Virus record (IMG/VR): IMGVR_UViG_3300035698_023245 | Span: 1-50,717 of that record | Source: a virus | Reading direction: 5' to 3' (one strand) | Length of the DNA: 50,717 nucleotides | Shown: piece by piece, positions 8,520 through 44,087 of the stretch | Layout of the letters: the number at the start of each line of letters is the position of its first letter | How positions within the stretch are numbered: the first letter of the stretch is position 1 | Program-made: the position numbers and the translations under genes | Notes under the pieces: model-generated | The model's database searches: none | What the model was told of the DNA's origin: nothing | Seen by the model: only the letters and a program-made list of their open reading frames with translations

Positions 8520-9294
8520 TGCTTTTTAATACCTCTTTTATAAACTCTGGCTTATAACCTTTTTTTTGTGCCGCTGCTACAACTTCATTCACATCTTTTG
8601 GTAGACACTTACCACTAAAACCTCTCTTATGTTTAAATACACAAGTGAACATTTTATCTTGACGTTCATCTAGTAAAAAGCCTTCTCTTGCTTGAGAGTA
8701 TGAAATACCGAACGTCTTGGCTAATTCATAGAACTCGTTGCACATCGTCACTCTTACAGCTATTGCCGTATTTTCCATGTATTTAATAAATTCTGCCGTT
8801 GTTGAATCTACTTGATAGTAGGTTTTTGTAGGACCGAGAACAGGGTAAAAGTAATCTAAAATATCTTCTCTATCTTCTGGCTTACCACCTATAATCATAA
8901 AACTGTGATAAGAGACATTAGTAGGGTGAGGATACTTCCAGAATGGTATGAAATATCCACCTTCACCAATATATTCTGGTGAAAAGCAGATTCTCTTACC
9001 GTATTTTGCTTTTAAAGACTCCGTAGTACCTGGAGGTATAGTTGATTTTATTAGAATTAAAGGTGTTTTAAGCCACTTTATAACTTCTTCTACCATAAAA
9101 ATATCGCAAGCGCCATCTTCCTTCATTGGTGTTGGTACGCAAATGATAACAAGTTCACATTCGTTAACTTTTTCTTTTGGGACATGCACACGTTCTTTTG
9201 GGTCCTTGCATACTATTTCATATTTTTTTTCTAAGAGCTTTTTATAAGTGGAGCCGACATAACCCTTTGAGCCTACGATTGCTATTTTTTTCAT
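8476..9294 (-). CDS. UDP-glucose/GDP-mannose dehydrogenase-like protein, short form
   Basis: The N-terminus IAIVGSKGYVGSTY is an NAD-binding Rossmann motif. CFSPEYIGEG (about residue 103) matches the S-P-E-F/Y-EG motif, K171 lies in EFIKYMENTAIA, and C230 lies in GFSGKCLPKDV, the catalytic thiol motif. These residues oxidise the C6 hydroxyl of a nucleotide sugar to a uronate in two steps. At 272 residues it keeps the NAD-binding and central domains but lacks the C-terminal sugar-nucleotide-binding domain of the usual protein of about 400 residues or more. It may therefore act on another substrate or be partly degraded. Confidence 0.8.
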   Translation of the reverse strand: MKKIAIVGSKGYVGSTYKKLLEKKYEIVCKDPKERVHVPKEKVNECELVIICVPTPMKEDGACDIFMVEEVIKWLKTPLILIKSTIPPGTTESLKAKYGKRICFSPEYIGEGGYFIPFWKYPHPTNVSYHSFMIIGGKPEDREDILDYFYPVLGPTKTYYQVDSTTAEFIKYMENTAIAVRVTMCNEFYELAKTFGISYSQAREGFLLDERQDKMFTCVFKHKRGFSGKCLPKDVNEVVAAAQKKGYKPEFIKEVLKSNDRFKSLGADPKQK

Positions 9295-12573: not shown

Positions 12574-13614
12574 CTAAAGAACGTTGCTAATCATTGCCTG
12601 CCAATGTGGAACTCTAACTTCTAGAACTACGTTCCAAACAATTGTTTCTGTTGAAGCAAGAGTTAGGGCACGGTATGTAGGAAGTTTATAAGCAGGTTCT
12701 GTTTGAGCAAGAGCGATTTCATCAAGTGTCAAGATGAACGCATCTTTGTTTGTACTGATTGCATTTGCTGTTGTGATCCATGGATCATAAACGATATCTA
12801 CAGCACCGTAAGGTGACATGTATTTAGCTACGTTATAACCGAATCTTTGATTGCCATTTGGGTCATTGTATAGTACTTTGCTTGCCCATAGGTCTGCAAA
12901 GGTACTAAGAGTAGATGCACCCATTACCAAGTGAGTTGGTTGTCCACCTTGTTCTGTTACAGCAAGAATAGCGGCATCAACTTTTGCCAAAGTGATAGCA
13001 GCAGCAGCACCGTCGATGTTGTTTCCGGCTGGGGCGTAATCTGAGATCAAGTTGTATATACCGTCAAACTCGGCTGGTGTACCAGTTTCGTCACCGTAGT
13101 AAATTTTCTTTTCTACGTCATGCATAATTTTACGAAGACCACGTTCGATATGCAGTTGTTGTAGATTGTAGTAATCACTTGCAGCCCACTGTGCCAAGTC
13201 ACAAACTTCCACTCTTGTAGCAAAAGTTTTCACTTGTGCTGAGTAACGAGTGATAGTTGATTCGTTAACAGGTGGAGTACCGCACTCTGCTGTTGCTGTG
13301 TCTGTACTACCGATAGCAGTTACCATGTCCCAGCTGTGGGTTAATCCATTTGCAGGAACTTTTGGTAGCATGTCTAGGATAGGAGTCTTACGTTTTGTAA
13401 CGTCAGCCATCTGTTTGTCAAGGTGTTCACGTTGAGCAAATGTGGTTGATGTAGATGTACTGACTGTTTTTTCAAGCAGTGCAGTTATATTGTCAAGCTG
13501 ACTCGACAAGCTTGATTTCTCTACTTCTTGAAGTTGCTTTTCTTCTTCTTGAATTGATTTATCAATTTCTTCAATCGTTTCAAGAATTTTAATTGTTTCG
13601 GCGCTTTTAGCCAT
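12574..13614 (-). CDS. Major capsid protein
   Basis: The 346-residue protein has a Glu/Gln-rich helical N-terminus of about 50 residues, of the kind removed or used as a scaffold segment in HK97-fold capsid proteins. Then come a long middle region with PILDMLPKVP and many short beta segments, and a C-terminal segment ending VPHWQAMISNVL. It lies directly after the prohead protease gene and has the codon use of a highly expressed gene. The assignment rests on size, composition and gene order. Confidence 0.8.
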   Translation of the reverse strand: MAKSAETIKILETIEEIDKSIQEEEKQLQEVEKSSLSSQLDNITALLEKTVSTSTSTTFAQREHLDKQMADVTKRKTPILDMLPKVPANGLTHSWDMVTAIGSTDTATAECGTPPVNESTITRYSAQVKTFATRVEVCDLAQWAASDYYNLQQLHIERGLRKIMHDVEKKIYYGDETGTPAEFDGIYNLISDYAPAGNNIDGAAAAITLAKVDAAILAVTEQGGQPTHLVMGASTLSTFADLWASKVLYNDPNGNQRFGYNVAKYMSPYGAVDIVYDPWITTANAISTNKDAFILTLDEIALAQTEPAYKLPTYRALTLASTETIVWNVVLEVRVPHWQAMISNVL

Positions 13615-13632: not shown

Positions 13633-15105
13633 TTAGTTAACTATCTGTTCATGCTGTTCATACTTTTTTCTAAGGGCTTGTCTCATAGCAAAGATGTTTT
13701 GACTATAAGGATTATCTTTTTCTACTTTTTCTAAAGCTTCTTTAAGAGTTAGTTTATCAATTCTGATTTCACCGTCGTCAGAAACTTTACTTTCGAATTT
13801 TTCAACACTTGCTGTTTTTCTATCAGCAGGTTGTTGTTCGATTTCTGCAATTTTATTAGATAGTTCAACTATTTGAGAATCTCTTGTTTTCATTGCGTTT
13901 ACTTGTGTCTTGGTAATACTAAGCAATTTTTCAAGAGCTTTTTTCATTTCATTTTCATCTGAAGGTTCTTCTGTATTTTTAGTTTCTTCCTTTTCGGCTG
14001 GTTCTTTTTCACTTAGTTCAGCTGATGCCAATAATTTCAAATCTTCAACGATTTTCATAACTGGTGCTGGGTCTTTTCCTCTTTCTTTAAAGAGATAAGC
14101 TACCCACGTTAAACTAGCGGCAACATCAACGATGTTATAACCAGTAGATAGGTCTTTCTTTACATCTTCTTCAGATTCTTCTAGACTTTTTTCTTCCTTT
14201 ACTTCTACTGCTTCTTCAATTTCTTCTTCAGATTTTTCTTCAGGTTCTTCCTTAGATTCTTCTTCTTTTGCTTCTTCTTTAGGTTCTTCATCTAGTTTTT
14301 CTTCTTCAACCACTACTTCTTCTTCGGTTTCTTCCTCAACTACTTCTTCTTCATCTGATTCAGATTTTGAAGCTTCTTCTTCAGTTTTGGCTTTCACTTC
14401 TTCTGTTTCAGCTTCAACTGTTTCAGTTTCTTCAGAAATAACTTTTTCTTCTTTTGTTTCTTCAATCTCAGTCTCTGGCTTTGCTTCGGGTGTGTCTTTT
14501 TTGACGTCCGTAGCTTCCAGTGAGGTTTGTTTTGTCATTACTTCTTCCTTATTAATATGTTTAGGCAACGATTTAGCTATGGCATTAACCCATGTTGTTG
14601 GATTAGCAGGTGAGGCTGTAACGGCAATATGGTCAAGATCAACATTCTTATATACGGTGATCCATCCTTCTCCTGCCGTTTTTTCTGTTTCTGATTCTTT
14701 AACGTACCCACCAATTGACAATCCTAATTCCTTTTTCTGGTCATTAAGTGCAATCCAGAGGTCATTTGATTTTGAAAACTCATTTAGTTTAGCTTCTACT
14801 ATAAGTCTGTAATCATCTGTTACGGTTAATTCGATTTCATTGCTTAGTTCACTAGACCATCCTCTTTCGTGGTCGTCATTCATTTTCACTGCGTGTTGTT
14901 TTAAAGAATTAGCCATGCTATCAATTGCTTCTGGAGACATTTTGTCTTTTTGTAAGTCAATCTCGGTATTAGAAGCTTCGCCAACTATGTAGCGTTCTTC
15001 TTTATCTCCATTTTTTACTACTCTAGTTTTTATAATAGGCAAAGTAAACTTGAAGTGCTTTGCTACTTCTTGTAAGTTGACTTCTTTAACGATTTTTTTT
15101 GCCAT
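13633..15105 (-). CDS. HK97-type prohead protease fused to an acidic scaffold
   Basis: Residues about 25-170 form a serine prohead protease: ERYIVGEASN, His79 in NDDHERG, Ser130 in KELGLSIGGYV and DLDHIAVTASPANP. Residues about 195-320 are an unusually long Glu-rich coiled region built of EE, EEV and EEE blocks. A helical tail follows with residues 380-490 predicted to be coiled. This one-polypeptide arrangement of protease plus internal scaffold is known from several phages that lack a separate scaffold gene. Cleavage would release the scaffold during maturation. The capsid gene follows after 18 bases. Confidence 0.85.
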   Translation of the reverse strand: MAKKIVKEVNLQEVAKHFKFTLPIIKTRVVKNGDKEERYIVGEASNTEIDLQKDKMSPEAIDSMANSLKQHAVKMNDDHERGWSSELSNEIELTVTDDYRLIVEAKLNEFSKSNDLWIALNDQKKELGLSIGGYVKESETEKTAGEGWITVYKNVDLDHIAVTASPANPTTWVNAIAKSLPKHINKEEVMTKQTSLEATDVKKDTPEAKPETEIEETKEEKVISEETETVEAETEEVKAKTEEEASKSESDEEEVVEEETEEEVVVEEEKLDEEPKEEAKEEESKEEPEEKSEEEIEEAVEVKEEKSLEESEEDVKKDLSTGYNIVDVAASLTWVAYLFKERGKDPAPVMKIVEDLKLLASAELSEKEPAEKEETKNTEEPSDENEMKKALEKLLSITKTQVNAMKTRDSQIVELSNKIAEIEQQPADRKTASVEKFESKVSDDGEIRIDKLTLKEALEKVEKDNPYSQNIFAMRQALRKKYEQHEQIVN

Positions 15106-29838: not shown

Positions 29839-31344
29839 TTATTGATCGTTTTCGTCAGCACCTTCTCCTTGAGTTCTTGTTGATTCTGGCTCTGCTGCGT
29901 CTTGTGGTGTATTACTAGGTTTTTTAGGTGTAGCCGTTGGCAATTTTTCAATGATAGCGTTTTCAATCGCTATAACGAAATCGTTCTTAGAACCGACAAG
30001 ATAACGTTCATCAGCCCAGTTGTCTGCAATTGGTTGTAAACCTATTTTCATACGAGCTTCGTTGTATGAATACAAACCAGTTCTAAAACCGTTCATAATG
30101 TCTCTACGAGCTGATTCACTTTCTTCAAGACCAGCAGATTTGAAGTTAAACTTCCAACCTTCTATACCAAAACCATCACGAATAATTTTGTTTGTTACAC
30201 CAGCTGAGATACGGTCACGCATAGGAAAGATTTTAGACATATAGAACGCTTTACGTGATTCTGCACTTACAGCTCTATTAGAACCCTCTGGAATAGCAAT
30301 TAAGATAAGTGGCACACCAAACATACCTGCTACCTGTCTTAGACCAAACTCAAGCAAGTCTAGGTACTGTAGATCGCTAGGTGAGATACCAAGATTTTCA
30401 ATTTTAGCACCCTTAAAGGCTACGATTGGTTTTCCTGCATTACCAGCGCCCATGTGGTTTTTTTCTATATAAGCGCTTACTTGTTCAGCATCAGTTTCGT
30501 TAGATTCTTCAGGAAGGTTAATTTGAAATGGTATAAAACCACCATTAGACAAAATGCTATTGTTGTACTGTAGGGCTTGAATAACCATCATCAGCACCGA
30601 AGAATTATTTTCAAGTACTGCGTTACCGTAAAGGTTAGCATTACGAGAGCGCATTTTCATGTGTATAATTTCTTCGAGTTCGTAAATGATTGTTCCACCA
30701 AAATCTGTCTTACGTTCATATCCCATTCTAAAATTAACTCCAGATTTGCGTTTTGCATCGTCTACTAGAATATTAATTTTTGTAGTGTCAAGATTATATA
30801 TTTCAGCGATATTACCTTGCATTTTTTTACTTGAAGCACCTTTTTTAGTTGGTACTTTTTCAGTAAACCAGTTGCCGTAACACAGCAAATTTTCAATACC
30901 AGCGCCAACAAGATCCTCTATAGTTTCGTCTTCTTGGTTAACTCTATCAAAAAATTTAAGCAACGTTTTTAGGTCTGATTTTTTTGCATATTCACCTTTG
31001 ACTTTATCAATTGTATATCCAGTACTCAATACAGCCTCTATGATTCTGTCAGAGCATTGGGTAGCTCCAGGAGATTCACTAAATAGAGTCTGTAGTGTTG
31101 AATAGTTTTTACCACTTGGGTATTGTTTTGCTTGAAACTGTTCACCAGAATAGTTGGTAATATATCTACGCTTTTGTATGTTGCTTAAATCCTGCTCTAT
31201 TCTAGTTGATAGCTTGTTTACTTTTTCAGCCAAATCTTTATCTGCAATTTTCTTTGACTGCTCAATAACCGCTTTGTTAATTTCGGTTTTTACGCTTTGG
31301 TCTTTAAGTGCTATGTTCAGTAATGTTTTCTGAAAAATGTTCAT
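29839..31344 (-). CDS. Phage portal protein
   Basis: The 501-residue product is of portal size and lies directly after the large terminase. It has an N-terminal helical region, then the clip/stem pattern with the conserved turn MFGVPLILIAIPEGSNRA, followed by a helix (KAFYMSKIFPMRDRI) and RTGLYSYNEARMKIGLQPI, the G-x-x-T/S-x-NE-R motif of portal C-terminal domains. Twelve copies would form the DNA channel at one capsid vertex. The last 40 residues are a disordered Pro/Thr/Glu tail. Confidence 0.9.
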   Translation of the reverse strand: MNIFQKTLLNIALKDQSVKTEINKAVIEQSKKIADKDLAEKVNKLSTRIEQDLSNIQKRRYITNYSGEQFQAKQYPSGKNYSTLQTLFSESPGATQCSDRIIEAVLSTGYTIDKVKGEYAKKSDLKTLLKFFDRVNQEDETIEDLVGAGIENLLCYGNWFTEKVPTKKGASSKKMQGNIAEIYNLDTTKINILVDDAKRKSGVNFRMGYERKTDFGGTIIYELEEIIHMKMRSRNANLYGNAVLENNSSVLMMVIQALQYNNSILSNGGFIPFQINLPEESNETDAEQVSAYIEKNHMGAGNAGKPIVAFKGAKIENLGISPSDLQYLDLLEFGLRQVAGMFGVPLILIAIPEGSNRAVSAESRKAFYMSKIFPMRDRISAGVTNKIIRDGFGIEGWKFNFKSAGLEESESARRDIMNGFRTGLYSYNEARMKIGLQPIADNWADERYLVGSKNDFVIAIENAIIEKLPTATPKKPSNTPQDAAEPESTRTQGEGADENDQ

Positions 31345-31353
31345 TTTTTCTCC

Positions 31354-33459
31354 TTAATCTACGCTTGCGCCAAGGATACCTGTTCCTGGCTTAAATTTTG
31401 ATACATGATAACAAACCCCTGCAACTGCATCGGCAGCATCTTTTGAGTTGTGTGCAAAGATACCGCACGTGAGAGCAAAATTCTGAGTCTTTGGTACTGT
31501 TATATCATATACATCAAATTCACCGCTATATTCTCTAACGCTTCTGACTTTACGTACTACTTTCCAATTAATCCATTTTTTAATAACCGTCATTAAACGG
31601 TCACCTTTTTTTATGTCTTTGGCTTGCCTATACGTTCCATCAAGCATGAGAAATAAATGGTCTTCTGTACAATCAACAAAATGGGTTGGGTCTGTATCAA
31701 ACAACACTCTAACTATCTTTCTAACCGTTTTCGTTTTGTGAGCGTTGTAACCTGTAGCCCAAACAGTTCTTTTACCATTCCATGTCATTACTGGAAATTC
31801 ATTGTCTGCACCAAGCTCAGCTAACTGTTTGATGGTCATGTAGTTAGGGTGACCTTTTTTCTTGATATTAATTCTAATTTTAGTATTACCAAGCAAACAA
31901 CCATGTGAGGGGTGGTCTATTTTATTACCCTTGATTTCTTCTAATTGTTGGCATTCGTCGATAAATGGTTCGTAGTTGTAATAGTCTAGTCTATCTTCCA
32001 AGATAGCCTCCTTCATCGTATAATATGGTTCTGGTGTACGGTCTACCGATAACAGTTCTGCTTTAAACCCTGCTTGTTGTAGTATTTGCCTAGAGTCAAC
32101 ACTTTGAAAACCGTCCATACTTACCGTAGAAATATTCCAACCTATCTCTCTAAGTCTGTAAATACGTTTGCGAATATCTTCAAATTTGATTTCGTGTCTA
32201 ATTGTTGCTGCTTCGATACGATGTATGTAGGCAATATAAATAAGTGGTCTTTTTTCCATTCTGCCATTTGCCAACTGGTATTTTCTCCAACCAGCTAGTT
32301 TACCCATTGCGAATCCTGTCTTGTCGCCCTTGCCCTCTTTATGCATACCTAAGTCAACGTGTATATAATAGCGGTCGTTGTCGTATTCTGGTGTACCTTT
32401 GATATTATGAAACCAATCGTGAAAATCTCGTTTTTGTGGACTCCAAGGGTGTCTTCTAGTTTTATTTGAATTTCCTTTAATAATACTTGGGTCACGAAAG
32501 AAACCTTGAATCGAGACAGACGGTCTAGCGCCTAAGTCTCTCATAGCTTTTTCTGGGTTACGTATGAATTCTTGTTCATACTCTACAGGAACCAAAGTCC
32601 CAGCCATTTCACTTAAGTACTTACCAAGATCAAACTTTTTACCACAATACGATTCTGCTGGCTTAGCATCCCAAAGAGCCAAGCGTGTTTTGTATAGTTT
32701 AGGGTTTGTATCATCACGATACTTTGTTTCAGCGAAGTCATAAATATAACGTGGTGACGTAATAATAAACATCATGCCACGCTCCTTAATACGTACGTCT
32801 TCATAACGAGAAAGAATACGTTTTTTTATTTGGTTGTATGATTCTTCGGCGTAATCTTTGTCTTTTGTTTGTACGTGAAATGAAGCTTCGTCTAAAACTG
32901 CTCCAAATATATTATAACCTAAAGGTGCTTGTTCATTTGAACCTAATGGCAAAACGAAAATGTTTTTCTTGAATTTCAAATAACTTTTTATGCGTCGGTT
33001 TGGTGGGTAATATGTTTGAAACCATTGGTTGTTATCTATGCGGTTTTTGATTTCTCCAAATACAACGTCTTTTGCCTGTGTTTTACTTGTTGAGATATTG
33101 ATGAAAGCAACTTTTGTATTCTTACCTAACATCAACGATTTTTGTGGGTTTTTCAAACAAAGCAAGCGATAGATAACATATGAAATAGCCATAGAACTTA
33201 GGTAACTTTTTCCACTACCTATTCCAGCTATAAACAACATTTCGTCGTAATCACCCTTGTCAAAAAAATCTATTAGAATTTCTCTATTTTTTAATCTAGG
33301 TTTGTCTTGTGGTGTCGTGAAAAAATCGTTATCAAGGTATTCTTCCATTGTAACGGGTTTATGTTCATATTCGGAGTTCTCAAGCAACCACTTCATGTTT
33401 TCTAATTCGCTACGTGTTGCTTTCTTTAAGAACTGTATCAATTGCGGAGATAATCGCAC
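31354..33459 (-). CDS. terL: Terminase large subunit containing a mini-intein
   Basis: The 701-residue precursor has Walker A AGIGSGKS (78-85), Walker B IFGAVLDEA (184-192) and a C-terminal RNase H-like nuclease with Asp369 in IHVDLGM and Asp449 in VSMDGF. The third acidic cluster, SKDAADAVAG, follows the intein (residues 521-671). Excision gives a 550-residue terminase, the normal size. It packages DNA into proheads with the portal and small subunit. The start is a GTG after GAGGACAGAG and lies 50 bases inside the small-subunit gene. Confidence 0.93.
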   Translation of the reverse strand: MRLSPQLIQFLKKATRSELENMKWLLENSEYEHKPVTMEEYLDNDFFTTPQDKPRLKNREILIDFFDKGDYDEMLFIAGIGSGKSYLSSMAISYVIYRLLCLKNPQKSLMLGKNTKVAFINISTSKTQAKDVVFGEIKNRIDNNQWFQTYYPPNRRIKSYLKFKKNIFVLPLGSNEQAPLGYNIFGAVLDEASFHVQTKDKDYAEESYNQIKKRILSRYEDVRIKERGMMFIITSPRYIYDFAETKYRDDTNPKLYKTRLALWDAKPAESYCGKKFDLGKYLSEMAGTLVPVEYEQEFIRNPEKAMRDLGARPSVSIQGFFRDPSIIKGNSNKTRRHPWSPQKRDFHDWFHNIKGTPEYDNDRYYIHVDLGMHKEGKGDKTGFAMGKLAGWRKYQLANGRMEKRPLIYIAYIHRIEAATIRHEIKFEDIRKRIYRLREIGWNISTVSMDGFQSVDSRQILQQAGFKAELLSVDRTPEPYYTMKEAILEDRLDYYNYEPFIDECQQLEEIKGNKIDHPSHGCLLGNTKIRINIKKKGHPNYMTIKQLAELGADNEFPVMTWNGKRTVWATGYNAHKTKTVRKIVRVLFDTDPTHFVDCTEDHLFLMLDGTYRQAKDIKKGDRLMTVIKKWINWKVVRKVRSVREYSGEFDVYDITVPKTQNFALTCGIFAHNSKDAADAVAGVCYHVSKFKPGTGILGASVD
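31447..31899 (-). other. Mini-intein in TerL (no homing endonuclease)
   Basis: The 151-residue insert begins with Cys in CLLGNTKI (block A). It has block B as CTEDHLFLM with the T-x-x-H core, block F as VYDITVPKTQNF, and ends in the HN of CGIFAHN followed by Ser, the +1 extein nucleophile. About 50 residues separate blocks B and F, too few for a LAGLIDADG or HNH endonuclease. The flanks DHPSHG and SKDAADAVAG rejoin as the nuclease motif. All splicing residues look intact. Confidence 0.93.
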
Positions 33460-34051
33460 CTCTGTCCTCTATTGGTAAGTTTCTTGCTTCATTGGCAAAA
33501 TTTACAACTTGTTGTTGATTTAAGATATTAACGTTCATGTCACCTTTTTTACCAAGGTTCAATCCTTCTAATTCTGATATTTTATCGAGAATGGCTCTAG
33601 CTGCGTTAAGGAAGCTAGACCTACTTTGTCCTGATTCTTCGCCAACACTAGCTTTTTGATATTCTTTAATGGCAAGTTTGTACAAGTAAGAATACTTATC
33701 CATAACACCTGCTCTTTTGCTCGAAAAGTCTATGTCAGACGCAGCTATTTCGCTTTTAATGAAATCTAAGTCTGTTCTTATTAAACCTAAAGTAACTTTT
33801 AGCTCTGTGTGTTTACCGTTGATTTCAACGCCTCGTTCTAGTATGCGTACGATTTCTTCGGCTCTATAGCCCATATTCATAAACTCACGCACCTTCTGCC
33901 TTCTAATGGCGTCTAGGTTCAATTCTTCTTCTGATTGAATAGACGGTACTGGTACGTTTTCTACAAAAGGCACTAGTTTGCCTTTTGGGTCGATACGTAC
34001 TTTTCCATTAGGGGTGTTTATTGTTTTAGCTTCTTTATTGGAGTTTGCCAT
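33410..34051 (-). CDS. terS: Terminase small subunit (probable)
   Basis: The 213-residue protein lies directly upstream of the large subunit and overlaps it, the standard order. It has an N-terminal disordered arm, a helix-turn-helix-like segment (KVREFMNMGYRAEEIVRIL) for DNA recognition, and a long helical middle and tail suited to ring assembly. The sequence itself is not diagnostic; position decides. Confidence 0.65.
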   Translation of the reverse strand: MANSNKEAKTINTPNGKVRIDPKGKLVPFVENVPVPSIQSEEELNLDAIRRQKVREFMNMGYRAEEIVRILERGVEINGKHTELKVTLGLIRTDLDFIKSEIAASDIDFSSKRAGVMDKYSYLYKLAIKEYQKASVGEESGQSRSSFLNAARAILDKISELEGLNLGKKGDMNVNILNQQQVVNFANEARNLPIEDRGAIISAIDTVLKESNT

Positions 34052-34715
34052 TAGTTTTTCTTAAAACCTCAAGTAGCGATTTATTTAAGCAATGATATTC
34101 TGCAAAAGGGCAACGTAGACATTGCCAACCTATAGTTTTAGGAAATACATTATTTTTTACTTTTTCATCAAACTCTTTCATTTTCTTAAAAAACTCTCTA
34201 AAGTTCTTCTCGGAACGATACGTTTCTTTGAAAATTATTGTCTTTTTCTTCTTGCTATAGATAATATAATTGAATATCGGTATTTTTGCAAACAACAAAT
34301 ACCAAGCATAACAATAAAGTGTAGCTTGGTCTGATTTGTTTAAAACACTTTGACTGAGTGTGTTCGAGGTGGTTTTGAGATCGTAAAGCCCCTTCTCGTT
34401 AACCCCGTCTATCCTCATTACGAACGGAACATCTATTTTTTCACCAGTGTCAATATCAACTAAGTAATTTCTAAGCGTCAATTCAACATCTTCAAAAAAA
34501 TCTTGTGGTATTTGTTCGGTGTATTTTTCAATTAGTTCATAATTATAAACTTCTTTGTTGTGGTAGTTCTCAACTGCTTTGTGATAGTCATAGCCAAACG
34601 TAACATAGTCTGGCATCACGCCTTTAAGTTCTGGATGAAGTTTTGACAATTCGAACTTCTTTGGACATGCTACATAGGTATTGTGCGAACTGTAAGAGTA
34701 ATGGTCAACTATCAT
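34035..34715 (-). CDS. RecB/Cas4-like PD-(D/E)XK nuclease with Fe-S cysteines
   Basis: The 226-residue protein has the nuclease core MRIDGV (Asp104), then LYDLKTTS (Asp113, Lys115), and a later Q-x3-Y helix (DQATLYCYAW). Cys17 together with Cys200, Cys203 and Cys210 (CLRCPFAEYHC) matches the four-cysteine iron-sulfur cluster of Cas4 and AddB-type exonucleases. It likely resects DNA ends in phage recombination or packaging. It overlaps the small terminase gene and the protease-like gene. Confidence 0.85.
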   Translation of the reverse strand: MIVDHYSYSSHNTYVACPKKFELSKLHPELKGVMPDYVTFGYDYHKAVENYHNKEVYNYELIEKYTEQIPQDFFEDVELTLRNYLVDIDTGEKIDVPFVMRIDGVNEKGLYDLKTTSNTLSQSVLNKSDQATLYCYAWYLLFAKIPIFNYIIYSKKKKTIIFKETYRSEKNFREFFKKMKEFDEKVKNNVFPKTIGWQCLRCPFAEYHCLNKSLLEVLRKTNGKLQ

Positions 34716-35257
34716 TTTGTATCTCGTTTAGTTGATAATATAACAGTTTTTCCACCAACATTCGGTGAAAAATGTTTTGCTGCTTCTATTGCTTTTTTAA
34801 TGCGTGACTCTGGTTTCTTTAAATCTATACTTGAGTATAGACTTCCTAGGGCAAAATCTTCACCACAACCACAGGCACTATATTCTTCTTCCATTTCACC
34901 TACTTGAGCATCGTTTTCTATTTTAAATAAACGATTTTTATAACCAACTAAAAATGTGCCAATGCTTTCTCTATTATCCTTAATACTCATGTATCCATTT
35001 TCTCTTAAACATATACGCACGGCATCAATAAAGTCGCAAACCATAAACCTAAATATACTATCATTTGGATTTGGAATCTCTAATTTATAACGTAATAGTT
35101 GCCCCATACGCCAGCTAGAAGTAAATCCAATGAGAAAATCACCATTGGTAAACACCTTGCTATTTTTATATTCTAATTTGCTGCGGATATTTGAACCGAG
35201 ACTGTCAGCTCCTATATAAACACGATCTTTTGTTTTTATACCTACAATTACTGTCAT
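34712..35257 (-). CDS. Proteasome beta/HslV-like threonine protease
   Basis: The 181-residue protein begins MTVIVGIKTKDRVYIGADS. After loss of the initiator Met the residues fall as Thr1, Asp17 (in GADS) and Lys33 (in SKVF), the catalytic set of the Ntn-hydrolase proteasome beta/HslV family. The segment ACGCGEDFALGSLYSS resembles the conserved G-S-G-x-x-A-x-G-A turn, and length is near HslV. A unfoldase partner such as HslU is not in the window. It may degrade host or phage proteins or act in maturation. An ATGA junction links it to the nuclease and the next gene. Confidence 0.8.
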   Translation of the reverse strand: MTVIVGIKTKDRVYIGADSLGSNIRSKLEYKNSKVFTNGDFLIGFTSSWRMGQLLRYKLEIPNPNDSIFRFMVCDFIDAVRICLRENGYMSIKDNRESIGTFLVGYKNRLFKIENDAQVGEMEEEYSACGCGEDFALGSLYSSIDLKKPESRIKKAIEAAKHFSPNVGGKTVILSTKRDTK

Positions 35258-35457
35258 AAGGTTTTTTTCCTTTTTAATTGTTTTCTGTAGAGTTGTGATT
35301 GTTTACTGAACTCTCTCTTTGCTTCTCTAATTGTTTTAGTTTTAAGCATAGTTTTATCAATATCATCAGTGAGTCTAGTAACGCTTTGTTCGAATTGAAG
35401 GTGTCTTATTTTAGCCGAAATTCTTTTTAACAGTTGCAACCGTTCTTCTCTTTTCAT
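35254..35457 (-). CDS. Small helical hypothetical protein
   Basis: The start is taken at 35457, where ATGA overlaps the upstream stop; an in-frame start at 35472 is possible. The 67-residue product is very basic and almost entirely helical (RLQLLKRISAKIRHLQFEQ at the start). No family is recognised. Confidence 0.5.
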   Translation of the reverse strand: MKREERLQLLKRISAKIRHLQFEQSVTRLTDDIDKTMLKTKTIREAKREFSKQSQLYRKQLKRKKTL

Positions 35458-35813
35458 TATATTATACTCCAAGTTCCATCATTTTTTAATTTTATTTCCC
35501 ATCTCGGCAAATCTTCTTCATCTTCTTTACTCAACGTCTCCCTAGCGAATTTCTGTGCTTTTTCAGCATTGTTGAAAAATCTATTTTCTATATCTTCTGT
35601 ATACATTTGTATTGCCGATTCGGTTTTGTTTAATTGAACTGTAATTTTTTTATTCAAAGCTTCAGCGTCATCTATGGCTCCTAATAGAGTTTCCCAATGG
35701 TATGTTGCTTCTAGTAGTCTTGATTTTTCAGCCCGAATCATTTCTAATTCTTCGTGGCTCATCTTTGCTATAATACTTTCTAATATATCAACTTGTGTTT
35801 TGGGTTGGGTCAT
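35457..35813 (-). CDS. Hypothetical coiled-coil protein
   Basis: The 118-residue product has a long N-terminal helical region with heptad-like spacing (DILESIIAKMSHEELEMIRA), then a basic segment, and ends in a short beta hairpin (LPRWEIKLKNDGTWSII). No enzyme motif is visible. It is three bases from the methyltransferase gene. Confidence 0.5.
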   Translation of the reverse strand: MTQPKTQVDILESIIAKMSHEELEMIRAEKSRLLEATYHWETLLGAIDDAEALNKKITVQLNKTESAIQMYTEDIENRFFNNAEKAQKFARETLSKEDEEDLPRWEIKLKNDGTWSII

Positions 35814-35816
35814 GCT

Positions 35817-36719
35817 CTATCCTTTTTTGAATACAATTAAATACTCATGAATTTTAGCCGTCATGCGTCGTTCTTCTATCTGACTTGCAAAACAAGCACC
35901 TAGTGAATTTTTCCATTTGATAATTATAACATCGTGAACCTTAAAACCAACCGCTTCACCCATTTTGATAATATCAGAATGGTACGAGTAGAACTTTCCT
36001 TTCTTTCTAAAATCATTGATGTTGATGGCGCAATACTTACCAGATTTTAATACACGATGAGATTCTGAGAGTATACGCTTCATGCCCTCTAAGAATTCTT
36101 CGTAGGTATGATTATATCCAAGCTGTTCTTGGCTGTCATCGTAAAACTCTAAATCCCAATATGGTGGGCTTGTGAAAACCATGTCAACAGAATTGTCTTC
36201 TTCAACCATTTTTTCAGATGATTGTTTTCTAAGGGTGATCGTATAGGGGGTTTTGAACATTAGAGATTGGTCGCCTTTACCTGTTATCTCTTGTTTAATT
36301 GCTTCGTTGAACTCCATGTATTCTTCGCAAACATCATAGCCTATGTAGTTTCTACCTAGAGAATAAGTTGCTTGCATTCTACTGTTGTGACCTGCACATG
36401 GGTCTAGTACTAAGTCACCTTCTTCTGAGTAGAACAGGACTATGCGCTTACAGATATTGTAAGGAAACGTGCTGAAACCAGATGTTTTGCCACGTACCGA
36501 ACGACCCGAAATATCAAATACACCGTAGAGCGTTTTATCGTAATCCATTTCTTTATGTTTTTCAAAAGAGATGTTTGCTTGGGTCTTTTTGTGCTGAATA
36601 ATATTGCCGTTTTTGCTATGATTAGCTTCCCAAACAGATGTTGGTACACAACCATATTTTTGTATAATCTCAAGCCTTTTCTCTCTGCTCTTTTGTAAAC
36701 TTTTTACGTCTTTAGCCAT
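35817..36719 (-). CDS. DNA methyltransferase (N4-cytosine/N6-adenine class)
   Basis: The 300-residue enzyme has SAM motif I as LVLDPCAGHNSRM (about 103-115) and catalytic motif IV as VFTSPPYWDL (TSPPYW at 183-188), the S-P-P-Y form of the N4/N6 amino-methyltransferases. Motif IV follows motif I by 75 residues. No restriction partner is adjacent, so it is an orphan enzyme, likely protecting phage DNA from host restriction or marking it. It shares 8 bases with the ParB-like gene. Confidence 0.9.
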   Translation of the reverse strand: MAKDVKSLQKSREKRLEIIQKYGCVPTSVWEANHSKNGNIIQHKKTQANISFEKHKEMDYDKTLYGVFDISGRSVRGKTSGFSTFPYNICKRIVLFYSEEGDLVLDPCAGHNSRMQATYSLGRNYIGYDVCEEYMEFNEAIKQEITGKGDQSLMFKTPYTITLRKQSSEKMVEEDNSVDMVFTSPPYWDLEFYDDSQEQLGYNHTYEEFLEGMKRILSESHRVLKSGKYCAININDFRKKGKFYSYHSDIIKMGEAVGFKVHDVIIIKWKNSLGACFASQIEERRMTAKIHEYLIVFKKG

Positions 36720-37335
36720 TTAGGTGTTCACATAAGTAGATAATTTTTTCTGAATTACTTTCACCTTGTACTTTCTGTAATGTTTTCAGCAGTATTGCCC
36801 ATTGTTCTTCGTTAAATGTAAGCAGTATTTTAAACTCTTTGTCAATCGGTATATCTTCTGTTAGTGGAATGATTGGTTCATCTAGAGGTGGGGGGTCGTC
36901 CATGGTTGCCAATCTTGTGATGGTATCATCAGACCAGCCAAGTTCTTCAGAAAGTTCTTGCACGGTAACGTTATCTTGTTTCATTAGATTACTAATCAGA
37001 GAAGCCATTTTAAGCGTGTCTACGTTGCCTTTAAGCGTGTTACGCTTGATTGTGGTAATCTTAGCGTCTTTGAGGTTGTCTTTGCCAGTTACGATGACAG
37101 GTATCTCTGTGTAGCCAAGCTTAGTAGCAGCCGTATAGCGTTGTTCACCGTCTACGATGATATAACAATTTTCGTTGTCTGGGTCGTTACGTACTTCAAT
37201 CGCTCCAATAAAACCATCATCTTTTATGCTCTTTACTTCTCTTGCCATTGTTTCTTTATCCATCTCGAATGGATTGTAGTCATTTATCTTCACTTTGTCC
37301 ATAGGTACTCTAACAACTTGGTCTTGAAATTTCAT
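36712..37335 (-). CDS. ParB/sulfiredoxin-fold nuclease-like protein
   Basis: The 207-residue protein has a ParB N-terminal domain: KVKINDYNPFEMDKETMARE, then IVDGEQRYTAATKLGYTEIP, the G-E-R/QR-x-x-A box. A helix-turn-helix follows (TVQELSEELGWSDDTITRLA). In phages such proteins often sit next to DNA methyltransferases and may act as nickases or DNA-binding regulators; here the two genes overlap, so they are probably functionally linked. Confidence 0.8.
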   Translation of the reverse strand: MKFQDQVVRVPMDKVKINDYNPFEMDKETMAREVKSIKDDGFIGAIEVRNDPDNENCYIIVDGEQRYTAATKLGYTEIPVIVTGKDNLKDAKITTIKRNTLKGNVDTLKMASLISNLMKQDNVTVQELSEELGWSDDTITRLATMDDPPPLDEPIIPLTEDIPIDKEFKILLTFNEEQWAILLKTLQKVQGESNSEKIIYLCEHLNG

Positions 37336-39425: not shown

Positions 39426-40847
39426 CTACAGTTTTATTTCTTTGATTTTTTGTATTAGTGCGTTTTTATCTTGTTCTAGCATTTCCATAACTGAGAATAT
39501 CTTTTCAGAGAACCCAGCGATGCAAAAAACGTTACGTTGAGGAAACTGCATTGTGCCATACCCCTGCAAGTCAAAAGAATAGACCATAGGATCAGCACCA
39601 GTACGTTCTTTATAGTAGCTAAAACTGCTGGTAGGATTATCGTGATGTATCCAACCTTGCATGTCAGATAAGATAATTATGCGGTCATATTTTTCTTTTG
39701 CGATGTTAAAGATAGAGTGGAAGTTAGTACCACCTTCTATTGCGTCATCTTCTAAACGTTGTGCAATAGACATCGTAGAATCGCCTGGATTCAGGTTTTT
39801 GAATCGTGCATCATTTGAGAACGTTACTAAGTCAGCGTCGTTTGTTTTGTAGAGAATAGCAGCAAACAGAGAACCGATTTTAATAGGTTTACCGTTCATA
39901 GAGCCAGACTCGTCAAGGGCTATTAGAGTTCTTCCATCAAACTTCGGTACGTTTGCCAAAGATATCTCGACCGCTTCTGAGATAGACGTAATAACCTTTC
40001 TAACTTTAGGGCTAGATAGTTGTTCAATTTCATGCATAGCAATTTTGAATCTGAATGGTAATATAAGAGATTTCTTGATTCTATTTTCATCTACCAACAG
40101 CTCACAAGCTTGGTCAACCATTTCTGGTGACTGTTCAATGATGTTACGTAGGTTACGTAGCAATGCAAAAGAACCTATTTTTTTGCTAGTGATAAGCTCT
40201 TTCCAAGCTTCTGCCTTTGCTTCTTCTTTGTTTTCTGACTCACCAGCTTTTGTTAGTTTTGCTTCCCATGTATCTTTTGAACGTAGTGTATCTTTAATCA
40301 GCTTTTCCAATGCCTTCGCATTTTTTGCTGTTGGTACTGGATGAATCATGTTAACAGCATCAACCAAACTAAGCTCGTGTTTTTCACCACGATATTTAGC
40401 GATTTGGTATTCGTTAAAGTTACCTAGAGCAAGCGACAAACCCTTTTTAAGAGAGTTTGGTAATGGCTTGCCGTATTTACTTAAGTAGTACGCAATGATT
40501 TCTGTAATATCATCTACACGATGTACTACTTTATTGTAGAAGTATTTAGTCCATTCTTCGCCTTTTACTTGTTTGGCGATTTCACCAGCTACTACATGAG
40601 AAATAGAACGCATTCCAAATTCTTGACGGGCAAAGATAGCTGCTTTTGCAACAAACTTTTTGTCTAGGCGTTCTATCAAACTGCATAGAATTGTAAGCGT
40701 TTCATTTTCGTCACGATAGTATTGGTCTTTGACGAATGATGTTAATAAAATTGATACAAATACTAGTTCTGGTGATTGGCTAAAAGCCTCACCACCTGCT
40801 AGATTTTCTGTTTTTGTACCAACTGCTTTTGTTGAGAATTTTGACAT
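39426..40847 (-). CDS. rsr: Ro60/TROVE-domain RNA-binding protein (Rsr)
   Basis: The 473-residue protein has a TROVE ring of helical repeats (about 20-300), with ILLTSFVKDQYYR and FGMRSISHVVAGEI as conserved segments. A von Willebrand A domain (about 305-470) has an intact MIDAS: DESGS (312-316), Thr374 in GGTNFHS and Asp395 in LSDMQGW. Ro60 proteins bind misfolded RNA in the ring hole and Y RNA on its outer face; in bacteria they work with exoribonucleases such as PNPase. SD AAGGAG precedes the ATG. Four Y-RNA-like elements fill the upstream gap, which makes the assignment strong. Confidence 0.92.
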   Translation of the reverse strand: MSKFSTKAVGTKTENLAGGEAFSQSPELVFVSILLTSFVKDQYYRDENETLTILCSLIERLDKKFVAKAAIFARQEFGMRSISHVVAGEIAKQVKGEEWTKYFYNKVVHRVDDITEIIAYYLSKYGKPLPNSLKKGLSLALGNFNEYQIAKYRGEKHELSLVDAVNMIHPVPTAKNAKALEKLIKDTLRSKDTWEAKLTKAGESENKEEAKAEAWKELITSKKIGSFALLRNLRNIIEQSPEMVDQACELLVDENRIKKSLILPFRFKIAMHEIEQLSSPKVRKVITSISEAVEISLANVPKFDGRTLIALDESGSMNGKPIKIGSLFAAILYKTNDADLVTFSNDARFKNLNPGDSTMSIAQRLEDDAIEGGTNFHSIFNIAKEKYDRIIILSDMQGWIHHDNPTSSFSYYKERTGADPMVYSFDLQGYGTMQFPQRNVFCIAGFSEKIFSVMEMLEQDKNALIQKIKEIKL

Positions 40848-41348: not shown

Positions 41349-42188
41349 TTAATTTGCTATGTCTAGATTTATGAACGGTACCGTCGAATTTGGTAACATT
41401 TGTGTGGGTAGTTTACCGTCCCATTTACTGATTGATGACGCTTCATTTTCAATTCTGCGTAATTCAAGCAAGTCTGGTGTAATTGTTTTGTTAAGCAAAT
41501 CTTGTGCTTGTGCTTTACCTTCTGCTTCGATGATTTGAGATTGTGATTCACCTTCTGCTTTTGCAACCTTCTGTTCAGCCAAGAGTTTCTCTTTTTCTAC
41601 TTCGTATTTTTGTTGTTCTGACCCTTGTTGAGCTACTTGTTTCTGTTCAATGGCTGCATTGTATTCTGGTGAGAAATCAAGATTGGCGATGCTAACATCA
41701 TCAATGATTATTCCATATAGTTCTAAACGCTTACTAAGATTATCTTTAATAACTTGCTTAAGTTCTTCACGCTTCTGAATAAGTTCTTGAGCAGTGAATT
41801 GAGCAGTCGAAGCTTTGATTGACTCTGAAATTGCTGGATCGATTAAAGTATCTTTGTACTTCGTACCTACGTTCTTGTGAAGTTCTGCAACCTTGTCTCT
41901 TTGTAGATGGTAATTTAGTGCTACGTTCGCTTGTACCGTCTGCATGTCTGTACTAGCGGCAGCAGCCTCGTTATCTTCTCTTTGAATTTTTACGTTGTAC
42001 TTGGTGATATCTTTTGTAAAGTTATTGTAAAAATGCAAACCTTCTTCAAAGATACCTTCTACTTTTCCGTATTGAGTTATTACTGCTACATTACCTGCCT
42101 TAACGATGGTAAACGGCATGAATATACCAACCAATATTAACACTACAAGCACCAAAAACAAACCTATAAAACTTTTAGCATTGTTCAT
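41349..42188 (-). CDS. SPFH/prohibitin-stomatin family membrane protein
   Basis: The 279-residue protein has an N-terminal membrane helix (FIGLFLVLVVLILVGIFM), then the SPFH core beginning GNVAVITQYGKVEGIFEEGL, which is the typical opening of prohibitin-type domains. The second half is a long Gln/Glu/Lys coiled coil (VEKEKLLAEQKVAKAEGESQ) that drives ring assembly. Such rings organise membrane domains or shield proteases. It lies directly upstream of the Y-RNA array and shares its transcript. A small membrane protein gene overlaps its start. Confidence 0.9.
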   Translation of the reverse strand: MNNAKSFIGLFLVLVVLILVGIFMPFTIVKAGNVAVITQYGKVEGIFEEGLHFYNNFTKDITKYNVKIQREDNEAAAASTDMQTVQANVALNYHLQRDKVAELHKNVGTKYKDTLIDPAISESIKASTAQFTAQELIQKREELKQVIKDNLSKRLELYGIIIDDVSIANLDFSPEYNAAIEQKQVAQQGSEQQKYEVEKEKLLAEQKVAKAEGESQSQIIEAEGKAQAQDLLNKTITPDLLELRRIENEASSISKWDGKLPTQMLPNSTVPFINLDIAN

Positions 42189-42944: not shown

Positions 42945-44087
42945 TTACTCACCATGTTTTAGCAAGTACTCGTTGTTAATTACCTTGAACGATAATCTAC
43001 CAAGTTCTTCGTCTTGTTTTTCTACCAGTGGGCGAAACACCATGCCCTCTAGCCATTCTGTAGGCGCAATTAATGACTTTTTGGTAACATATTCGACCAT
43101 TTCATCAACAGTTGGCAAAAGCTTAAAATCTTCGCTTATGACTGGCACTGTTTTAACATTCAAGATGTTACAAAGAAGTTTGAAGTTTGGGTAATCAACA
43201 TACCTACCAGTTTTGAAGTTGTAAGCATTGAAGAAATAGACATCGTTCTCTTTAAGCAATAATCTATTGCTTTGAATACTAGGACCGACTAATTCACCTT
43301 GTAACGCAACTGCTTCGTTGTAATCTTTAAATCTGTCGTATAAACCAGATTTTAGAATTGGTTTCCAGAATTTGTTATTCTCATCTTTTGGATACATTAT
43401 ATTTCTACTGCATACCCATACTTCACCATTTTTTATGAAAACAGTTATGCTCGAACCATCTATTTTTTCTGTTACGTAGAACCGTTTTTCTGCGTGGCGT
43501 TGAAGTACTTCTGGCACGTTTTGCAAACGAGTCTCATCTGTTTTAGGTATGTATGAAGGAAACCGTTGCAAGTTACGCCCCCAAAGTTTTATCGCAAGTT
43601 TTGGCAACAACTTCTTAATGAACATACCAATCTTAACTGGTAACCAGTCTGGGAATATCACTGGTTTACGTGAAGCAGGTGTATTGCGCTGTTCTATAAT
43701 TTTTTCGTATTTAATAACGCCTAGTTTTTTGGTAACGTCTTTACCTTCATCTAAAACTTTTAAAACATCTGCAAATGCACTAACTGGTAAAGCTAATCCT
43801 TGTGAGATTTGTTTACGTAGTTTAATAGTGCGTAGACGATAACCAGAATGTTCTTTATGGTCTTTACCAATTATTGTTCTAACACCTCTATCCGCTAAAA
43901 ACTCAAACGCTGGTATAACAGGTAACAAACTATCAACTTCAAAATAAACACAGTAATCCCCTATTTTGAATTCACCTTTTTTGACTACAACATGCCAACC
44001 TTGAACGGTGGCGACTTCAATTCTATCAGCACCCTTAATTGGTTGCAGGTCTGCAATCTTTTGTATTGACGCTAATTTTCTAATCAT
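42945..44087 (-). CDS. RNA ligase, Rnl5-like (Deinococcus DraRnl family)
   Basis: The 380-residue protein begins MIRKLASIQKIADLQPIKGA, an N-terminal OB-like domain with GWHVVVKKGEF, typical of DraRnl (Rnl5). The ligase domain has motif I TEKIDGSS with Lys208 as the AMP-acceptor, motif III QGELVGPS, motif IV EGMVFRP (347-353) and motif V LSFKVIN (365-371). It should seal 3'-OH/5'-phosphate breaks in duplex RNA. Position just before the Ro60/Y-RNA operon suggests joint action in RNA repair. Confidence 0.88.
   Translation of the reverse strand: MIRKLASIQKIADLQPIKGADRIEVATVQGWHVVVKKGEFKIGDYCVYFEVDSLLPVIPAFEFLADRGVRTIIGKDHKEHSGYRLRTIKLRKQISQGLALPVSAFADVLKVLDEGKDVTKKLGVIKYEKIIEQRNTPASRKPVIFPDWLPVKIGMFIKKLLPKLAIKLWGRNLQRFPSYIPKTDETRLQNVPEVLQRHAEKRFYVTEKIDGSSITVFIKNGEVWVCSRNIMYPKDENNKFWKPILKSGLYDRFKDYNEAVALQGELVGPSIQSNRLLLKENDVYFFNAYNFKTGRYVDYPNFKLLCNILNVKTVPVISEDFKLLPTVDEMVEYVTKKSLIAPTEWLEGMVFRPLVEKQDEELGRLSFKVINNEYLLKHGE

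Follow-up and report, generated by a model that had tools for sequence, protein, structure and literature searches.

The window analysed here is a 50.7-kb virus record, possibly a fragment (50,717 nucleotides), in which a gene for a 181-residue protein lies on the minus strand among genes for DNA processing, packaging and head formation. The features used below are as follows, the peptidase being numbered so that the residue after the initiator methionine is residue 1.

12574..13614, minus strand: major capsid protein, SU10/HK97-like (PF17236, E 3e-29)
13633..15105, minus strand: S78-type prohead protease, the phage's own head maturation protease (PF04586, E 2e-6, over the cut-off; phrog_1028)
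29839..31344, minus strand: portal protein (PF04860, E 2e-38), 3.65 kb downstream of the peptidase gene and on the same strand
31354..33459, minus strand: terminase large subunit (TerL) with intein (phrog_17415 and phrog_38, terminase; PF14890, intein splicing; TIGR01443)
33410..34051, minus strand: probable small terminase, named from its position and a helix-turn-helix-like stretch only, with no family match; an orthologue occupies the same place in the related record L181
34035..34715, minus strand: PD-(D/E)XK (RecB/Cas4-like) nuclease (PF12705, E 8e-12; phrog_1218, exonuclease), its own ATG overlapping the peptidase stop (ATGA)
34712..35257, minus strand: AAH-type proteasome-like threonine peptidase, 181 aa, ATG start, assigned by PHROG, active-site alignment and fold
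35252-35254, 35204-35206 and 35156-35158, minus strand: codons of Thr1, Asp17 and Lys33 of the peptidase gene
35254..35472, minus strand: 72-aa ORF of no assigned function, its stop overlapping the peptidase start codon; no family above noise
35457..35813, minus strand: 118-aa ORF of no assigned function, in the same accessory cassette as the peptidase; no convincing family
35817..36719, minus strand: DNA methyltransferase (N6_N4_Mtase; PF01555, E 4e-27), first gene of the accessory cassette
36712..37335, minus strand: ParB-like protein (PF02195), upstream of the cassette

The peptidase frame (34712-35257, minus strand) opens with ATG ACA, comprises 181 codons and is preceded, about 10 nt upstream of the start, by a Shine-Dalgarno-like AAGGA. 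Its translation places a threonine directly after the initiator methionine, followed by Asp17 and Lys33, bearing out the original prediction that methionine removal would leave these three residues at the catalytic positions of proteasome beta and HslV subunits. ATGA start/stop overlaps join the gene to both neighbours, the 72-aa ORF upstream and the PD-(D/E)XK nuclease downstream. Further upstream lie the 118-aa ORF, the DNA methyltransferase and the ParB-like protein, while the nuclease is followed downstream by the small terminase candidate, the intein-bearing TerL and the portal gene. The tight coupling to DNA-processing genes ahead of terminase, also predicted earlier, is thus seen in both the nuclease overlap and the gene order.

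Elsewhere the window encodes a Ro60-like TROVE/vWA RNA-binding protein (39426-40847, minus strand; PF05731, E 3e-20), an RNA ligase (42945-44087) and an SPFH/Band 7 protein (41349-42188, minus strand; PF01145, E 4e-36). An Rfam search of the window returned two tRNA-Lys genes only and no Y RNA; in Ochrobactrum phage OC, a Ro-sixty-related gene lies about 7 kb from the AAH gene. Translations read in and around the capsid-to-portal region (4213-29596, minus strand) include many glycosyltransferase-like and methyltransferase-like ORFs, which is unusual for a 50-kb phage record. In a host search, the portal and capsid proteins found no close match among named phages.

With respect to family, the peptidase matches PHROG 1040, 'peptidase HslV family', with E 8e-29 over residues 1-180, whereas its Pfam Proteasome match falls just below the cut-off and the NCBIfam HslV models gave no match at E up to 10. 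A tblastn search with the window peptidase matched 180 phage records, and homologues were collected from phages, plasmids, GTDB genomes and IMG/VR. Its best bacterial relatives are found in rhizobia, Azospirillum, Streptomyces, Frankia, Dactylosporangium and Paenibacillus, with 41-54% identity over most of the length to the rhizobial, Azospirillum, Streptomyces and Frankia proteins. These taxa match the range given for AAH, a group described in alpha-proteobacteria, Actinobacteria, Firmicutes and phages (Fuchs, Alva, Lupas 2021; PMC8665760). We therefore consider that PHROG 1040 and AAH are almost certainly the same family and that the window peptidase belongs to it, the AAH assignment being made by taxon range and length and the reference set (e.g. 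WP_035979212) being compared by description. In common with AAH, it has a compact four-helix subunit made of two helix pairs, Thr1, Asp17 and Lys33, no propeptide and no C-terminal S12/H5, and its relatives cover the same taxa (Rhizobium, Azospirillum, Streptomyces, Frankia, Firmicutes and phages). It fits AAH and not the phage proteasome homologue PPH, which is likewise phage-encoded but measures only about 140 residues and lacks helix H2 (PMC8665760), whereas our 181-residue protein has a helix at 68-86; membership of CPH is a less likely alternative. In the AAH tree, the window peptidase forms a deep branch beside the remaining AAH, and viral and cellular rows swap places at least 10 times on supported branches. 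Proteasome-like peptidases have already been reported in phages, and the gene in the window adds another real, ordinary member of a described family.

Among individual relatives, the annotated start of the Moorella phage MTATph1 gene (L008, 9001-9558; annotated start 9043) removes the first 14 residues including Thr1, while the tblastn match starts at 9001 with the conserved start and threonine. Relatives in Pseudoalteromonas and Vibrio phages (L010, 7001-8167; L011, 7001-7963) carry C-terminal extensions of about 140-210 residues beyond the peptidase domain.

The active site is strictly conserved. Across 152 distinct homologues, Thr1, Asp17, Lys33, Gly43, Ser47, Gly129, Gly131 and Val166 are invariant; the scan patterns contained the Asp17 motif (viruses) and the GFTSS motif (genomes), which means that those columns were partly selected for, while Thr1 and Lys33 were in neither. 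In all 173 homologues with an aligned N-terminus, the codon preceding the threonine is an ATG, GTG or TTG start, which is hard to explain unless methionine removal must expose Thr1. At seven loci the alignment did not reach residue 1. A contig end truncates one of these, the local alignment overlooked the MT start of another, one Bradyrhizobium row begins only at residue 10, and in four Rhizobium loci the frame is broken upstream of residue 40. Exposure of Thr1 by methionine removal is thus strongly supported as a prediction from sequence, and the proposal of a catalytic Thr1 is supported by the conservation of this residue among homologues. At the position of the oxyanion glycine of HslV and BPH (Gly47), most members gathered here have serine or threonine, a difference from the AAH references as compared by description. 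Since the oxyanion hole uses a backbone amide, such a substitution need not abolish activity.

Structurally, an AlphaFold2 monomer model (106 aligned sequences) reached a mean pLDDT of 95.8 and a pTM of 0.91, with helices at 49-57, 68-86, 133-142 and 149-163 and a last strand at 171-175. Comparison with solved structures by Foldseek and VIA-align placed BPH (PDB 5ovs, 5ovt, 5ovu) at the top (Z 21.8, rmsd 2.2-2.4 over 171-174 residues), followed by archaeal proteasome beta and HslV (Z 19-20; HslV about 19.7). The top PDB matches are all BPH, HslV or proteasome beta chains, all 1000 aligned PDB chains score Z 8 or more, and residue 2 of the model aligns with residue 1 (Thr1) of the matched chains. 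A sequence profile search of the PDB likewise recovered HslV, BPH and proteasome beta, with the N-termini of query and match aligned. Taken with the invariant Thr1, Asp17 and Lys33, the predicted four-layer, proteasome beta-type fold and the active site provide good support for an Ntn-hydrolase of the proteasome superfamily, as originally proposed.

The narrower label 'HslV-type' fared less well: the superfamily stands, but among solved structures BPH is nearest in fold, and the protein belongs to AAH/PHROG 1040, not to HslV. HslV (ClpQ) shares the fold and the positions of Thr1, Asp17 and Lys33, at about 15% identity, but its segment before strand 7 is shorter; in the profile alignment, the window peptidase has about ten residues more than Thermotoga HslV, and fewer than BPH, in the span from helix 1 to strand 7, which holds helices 1-2 and the pore loop. 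BPH has been described as an unfoldase-independent homologue with a long pore-loop segment (PMC5777263). It forms a tetradecameric double ring, is only about 21% identical to the window peptidase and has a longer, strongly acidic pore loop, but Thr1 superposes and both are without a propeptide and without an unfoldase partner.

HslV is paired with HslU, whereas AAH carriers are often without it. The expectation that no HslU-like ATPase would lie near the gene was correct, and a search for an unfoldase elsewhere in the record came back empty as well: no AAA_2 (HslU/ClpX-type) domain occurs in the 50.7-kb window or in the four named phage genomes tested, and none in 46 of 51 AAH virus records overall, many of which are fragments. 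Among cellular AAH carriers, represented by draft genomes, HslU exceeds its curated cut-off in 8 of 22, and a full-length HslU above the family threshold is absent from all 14 actinobacterial carriers. AAH therefore does not depend on HslU. These counts bear directly on the suggestion, raised at the outset, that an HslV-like peptidase redirects degradation by docking on an AAA+ unfoldase of the host, either HslU or ClpX. The superfamily and size would fit HslV, and bacteria do encode HslU or ClpX, the former in those 8 of 22 carriers. However, the 14 actinobacterial genomes speak against takeover of HslU, the closest fold is that of a proteasome homologue without known unfoldase in which the HslU-contact residues are lost (PMC5777263), and neither the window nor the 46 virus records supply an unfoldase of their own. 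The partner could still be of ClpX type, but we consider docking on a host unfoldase unlikely.

The genomic context of AAH points to the phage head. Among the 30 virus records with both an AAH and a portal match, AAH lies on the same strand and at most 6 kb upstream of the portal gene in 16, where record lengths would predict 3.7 (p 5e-8), and the linkage persists after thinning by AAH identity (p 1e-6 with 26 rows, 6e-5 with 17 and 9e-4 with 11). The commonest PHROGs among the 132 nearest neighbours are terminase large subunit, portal, capsid, head maturation protease, small terminase and head morphogenesis, and most of the 25 commonest neighbour families belong to head and packaging. The order TerL-AAH-portal recurs in L110, L149 and L103, and by inspection L120 reads TerS-TerL-AAH-portal-S78 protease-capsid; L127 reads TerL-AAH-head gene and L128 portal-AAH-head maturation protease. 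Because the terminases beside AAH come from different families (phrog_9, phrog_2 and phrog_979/38), this arrangement arose more than once. Neither a link between head genes and AAH or PPH nor experimental work on these phage enzymes appeared in the open-access literature searched, which yielded only Fuchs 2021 and genome announcements; the Fuchs 2021 text (PMC8665760) makes no mention of terminase, capsid or head. The clustering of phage AAH with head modules, and its accessory status, go beyond the open-access literature that we could find.

The accessory status is evident from L181, the nearest relative of the window phage (portal 59%, TerL 64% and nuclease 61% identical). There the order is RuvC-ParB-nuclease-TerS-TerL-portal, with ParB directly ahead of the nuclease, and the methyltransferase, the 118-aa ORF, the 72-aa ORF and AAH, which lie between these two genes in the window, are absent from that place; L181 is a fragment, and an AAH gene could lie elsewhere in it. 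In the window phage the peptidase is an accessory gene carried on an optional cassette of roughly 2 kb, and a packaging module without the cassette means that it is dispensable for packaging in that lineage. Constant partners within the cassette were sought and rejected: the 72-aa and 118-aa ORFs have no relatives at any fetched locus, and the 132 neighbours include one N6_N4_Mtase, a single Dam and a single MT-A70. The TerL genes differ too, the frame in L181 being longer (893 aa) than the intein-bearing gene of the window (31354-33459, minus strand), perhaps owing to a larger intein.

Bringing these lines together, we favor, with a probability of roughly 60%, a self-activating, unfoldase-independent AAH peptidase of putative activity, encoded in an accessory cassette; action during particle assembly is our best guess at its role, at a clearly lower probability. 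Removal of the initiator methionine would expose Thr1, whose side-chain oxygen is predicted to attack peptide bonds with the aid of Asp17 and Lys33, and, as there is no propeptide, the subunit should become active upon assembly. By analogy with BPH and HslV, the subunits probably assemble into a ring or double ring with the active sites shut inside. Like BPH, the enzyme probably has no dedicated unfoldase and takes short or unfolded polypeptides as substrates, on which it would act without ATP. The cassette, methyltransferase-ORF-ORF-peptidase, would have been inserted just ahead of the nuclease-terminase-portal operon. Given its recurrent position in head and packaging operons of unrelated phages, the likeliest role would lie in head building, and we tentatively suggest that, while heads are built and packaged, the enzyme clears or trims cleavage peptides or assembly intermediates that are unfolded. 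It would act beside, not instead of, the prohead protease, since the window phage has its own S78 enzyme adjoining the capsid gene; replacement of that protease was rejected on this ground, and L120 (by inspection) and L128 have one too.

A broader version of this proposal, in which AAH is the head-assembly compartmental threonine peptidase of tailed phages and digests scaffold or assembly fragments from within the terminase-portal-prohead protease operon, we regard as speculative and somewhat doubtful. Against a head role in either version stands the fact that AAH relatives lie among nucleotide-metabolism or early genes in T5-like, Vibrio, Geobacillus and Moorella phages, and that an Azospirillum copy sits beside a metabolic gene, so head assembly cannot be the sole role of the family. 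Genes may also simply insert easily between terminase and portal. The Azospirillum gene (L024, 3889-6570) follows an indolepyruvate/phenylpyruvate decarboxylase (TIGR03394, 1036 bits; ipdC, auxin synthesis), and its neighbours are common to more than 20 genomes; it is a domesticated cellular AAH. On a Sinorhizobium fredii GR64 plasmid (L016, 5882-9323), AAH lies in a nif cluster, with nifQ on one side and an iron-sulfur assembly gene adjoining nifS on the other; a general link to nitrogen fixation was rejected, as nif neighbours occur at this locus and at none of the other fetched loci.

Degradation of defence proteins had also been envisaged originally, and a counter-defence or host-takeover protease, inactivating host defence or regulatory proteins from a cassette shared with a DNA methyltransferase, is in keeping with the absence of that cassette from the close relative L181 and with methylases near the AAH gene in two isolated phages. 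Yet no PADLOC family matches the peptidase, which rejects a known defence family, the methyltransferase does not recur among the 132 neighbours and head genes are far commoner there, making this role improbable. Least probable is an enzyme with a narrow task in place of a general degradative peptidase, either a transpeptidase or ligase of the connectase kind or a maturation enzyme dedicated to a single phage protein: the superfamily does include monomeric ligases, and in L128 the gene is flanked by portal and head maturation protease, but our model retains two helix pairs and lacks the helical insertion (strands 3 to 4) that together with loss of the first helix pair marks connectase (PMC8665760), and the window phage already has its S78 prohead protease.

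In conclusion, proteasome-like enzymes of phages were catalogued in 2021, and in the literature searched no phage member has been given a function by experiment. The placement of AAH in head modules argues against its usual annotation as an HslU-dependent 'HslV', and its recurrence among terminase, portal and head protease genes in differing lineages turns a role in head building into a concrete, testable hypothesis. If true, AAH would represent a second, so far unrecognised proteolytic machine in phage head maturation.
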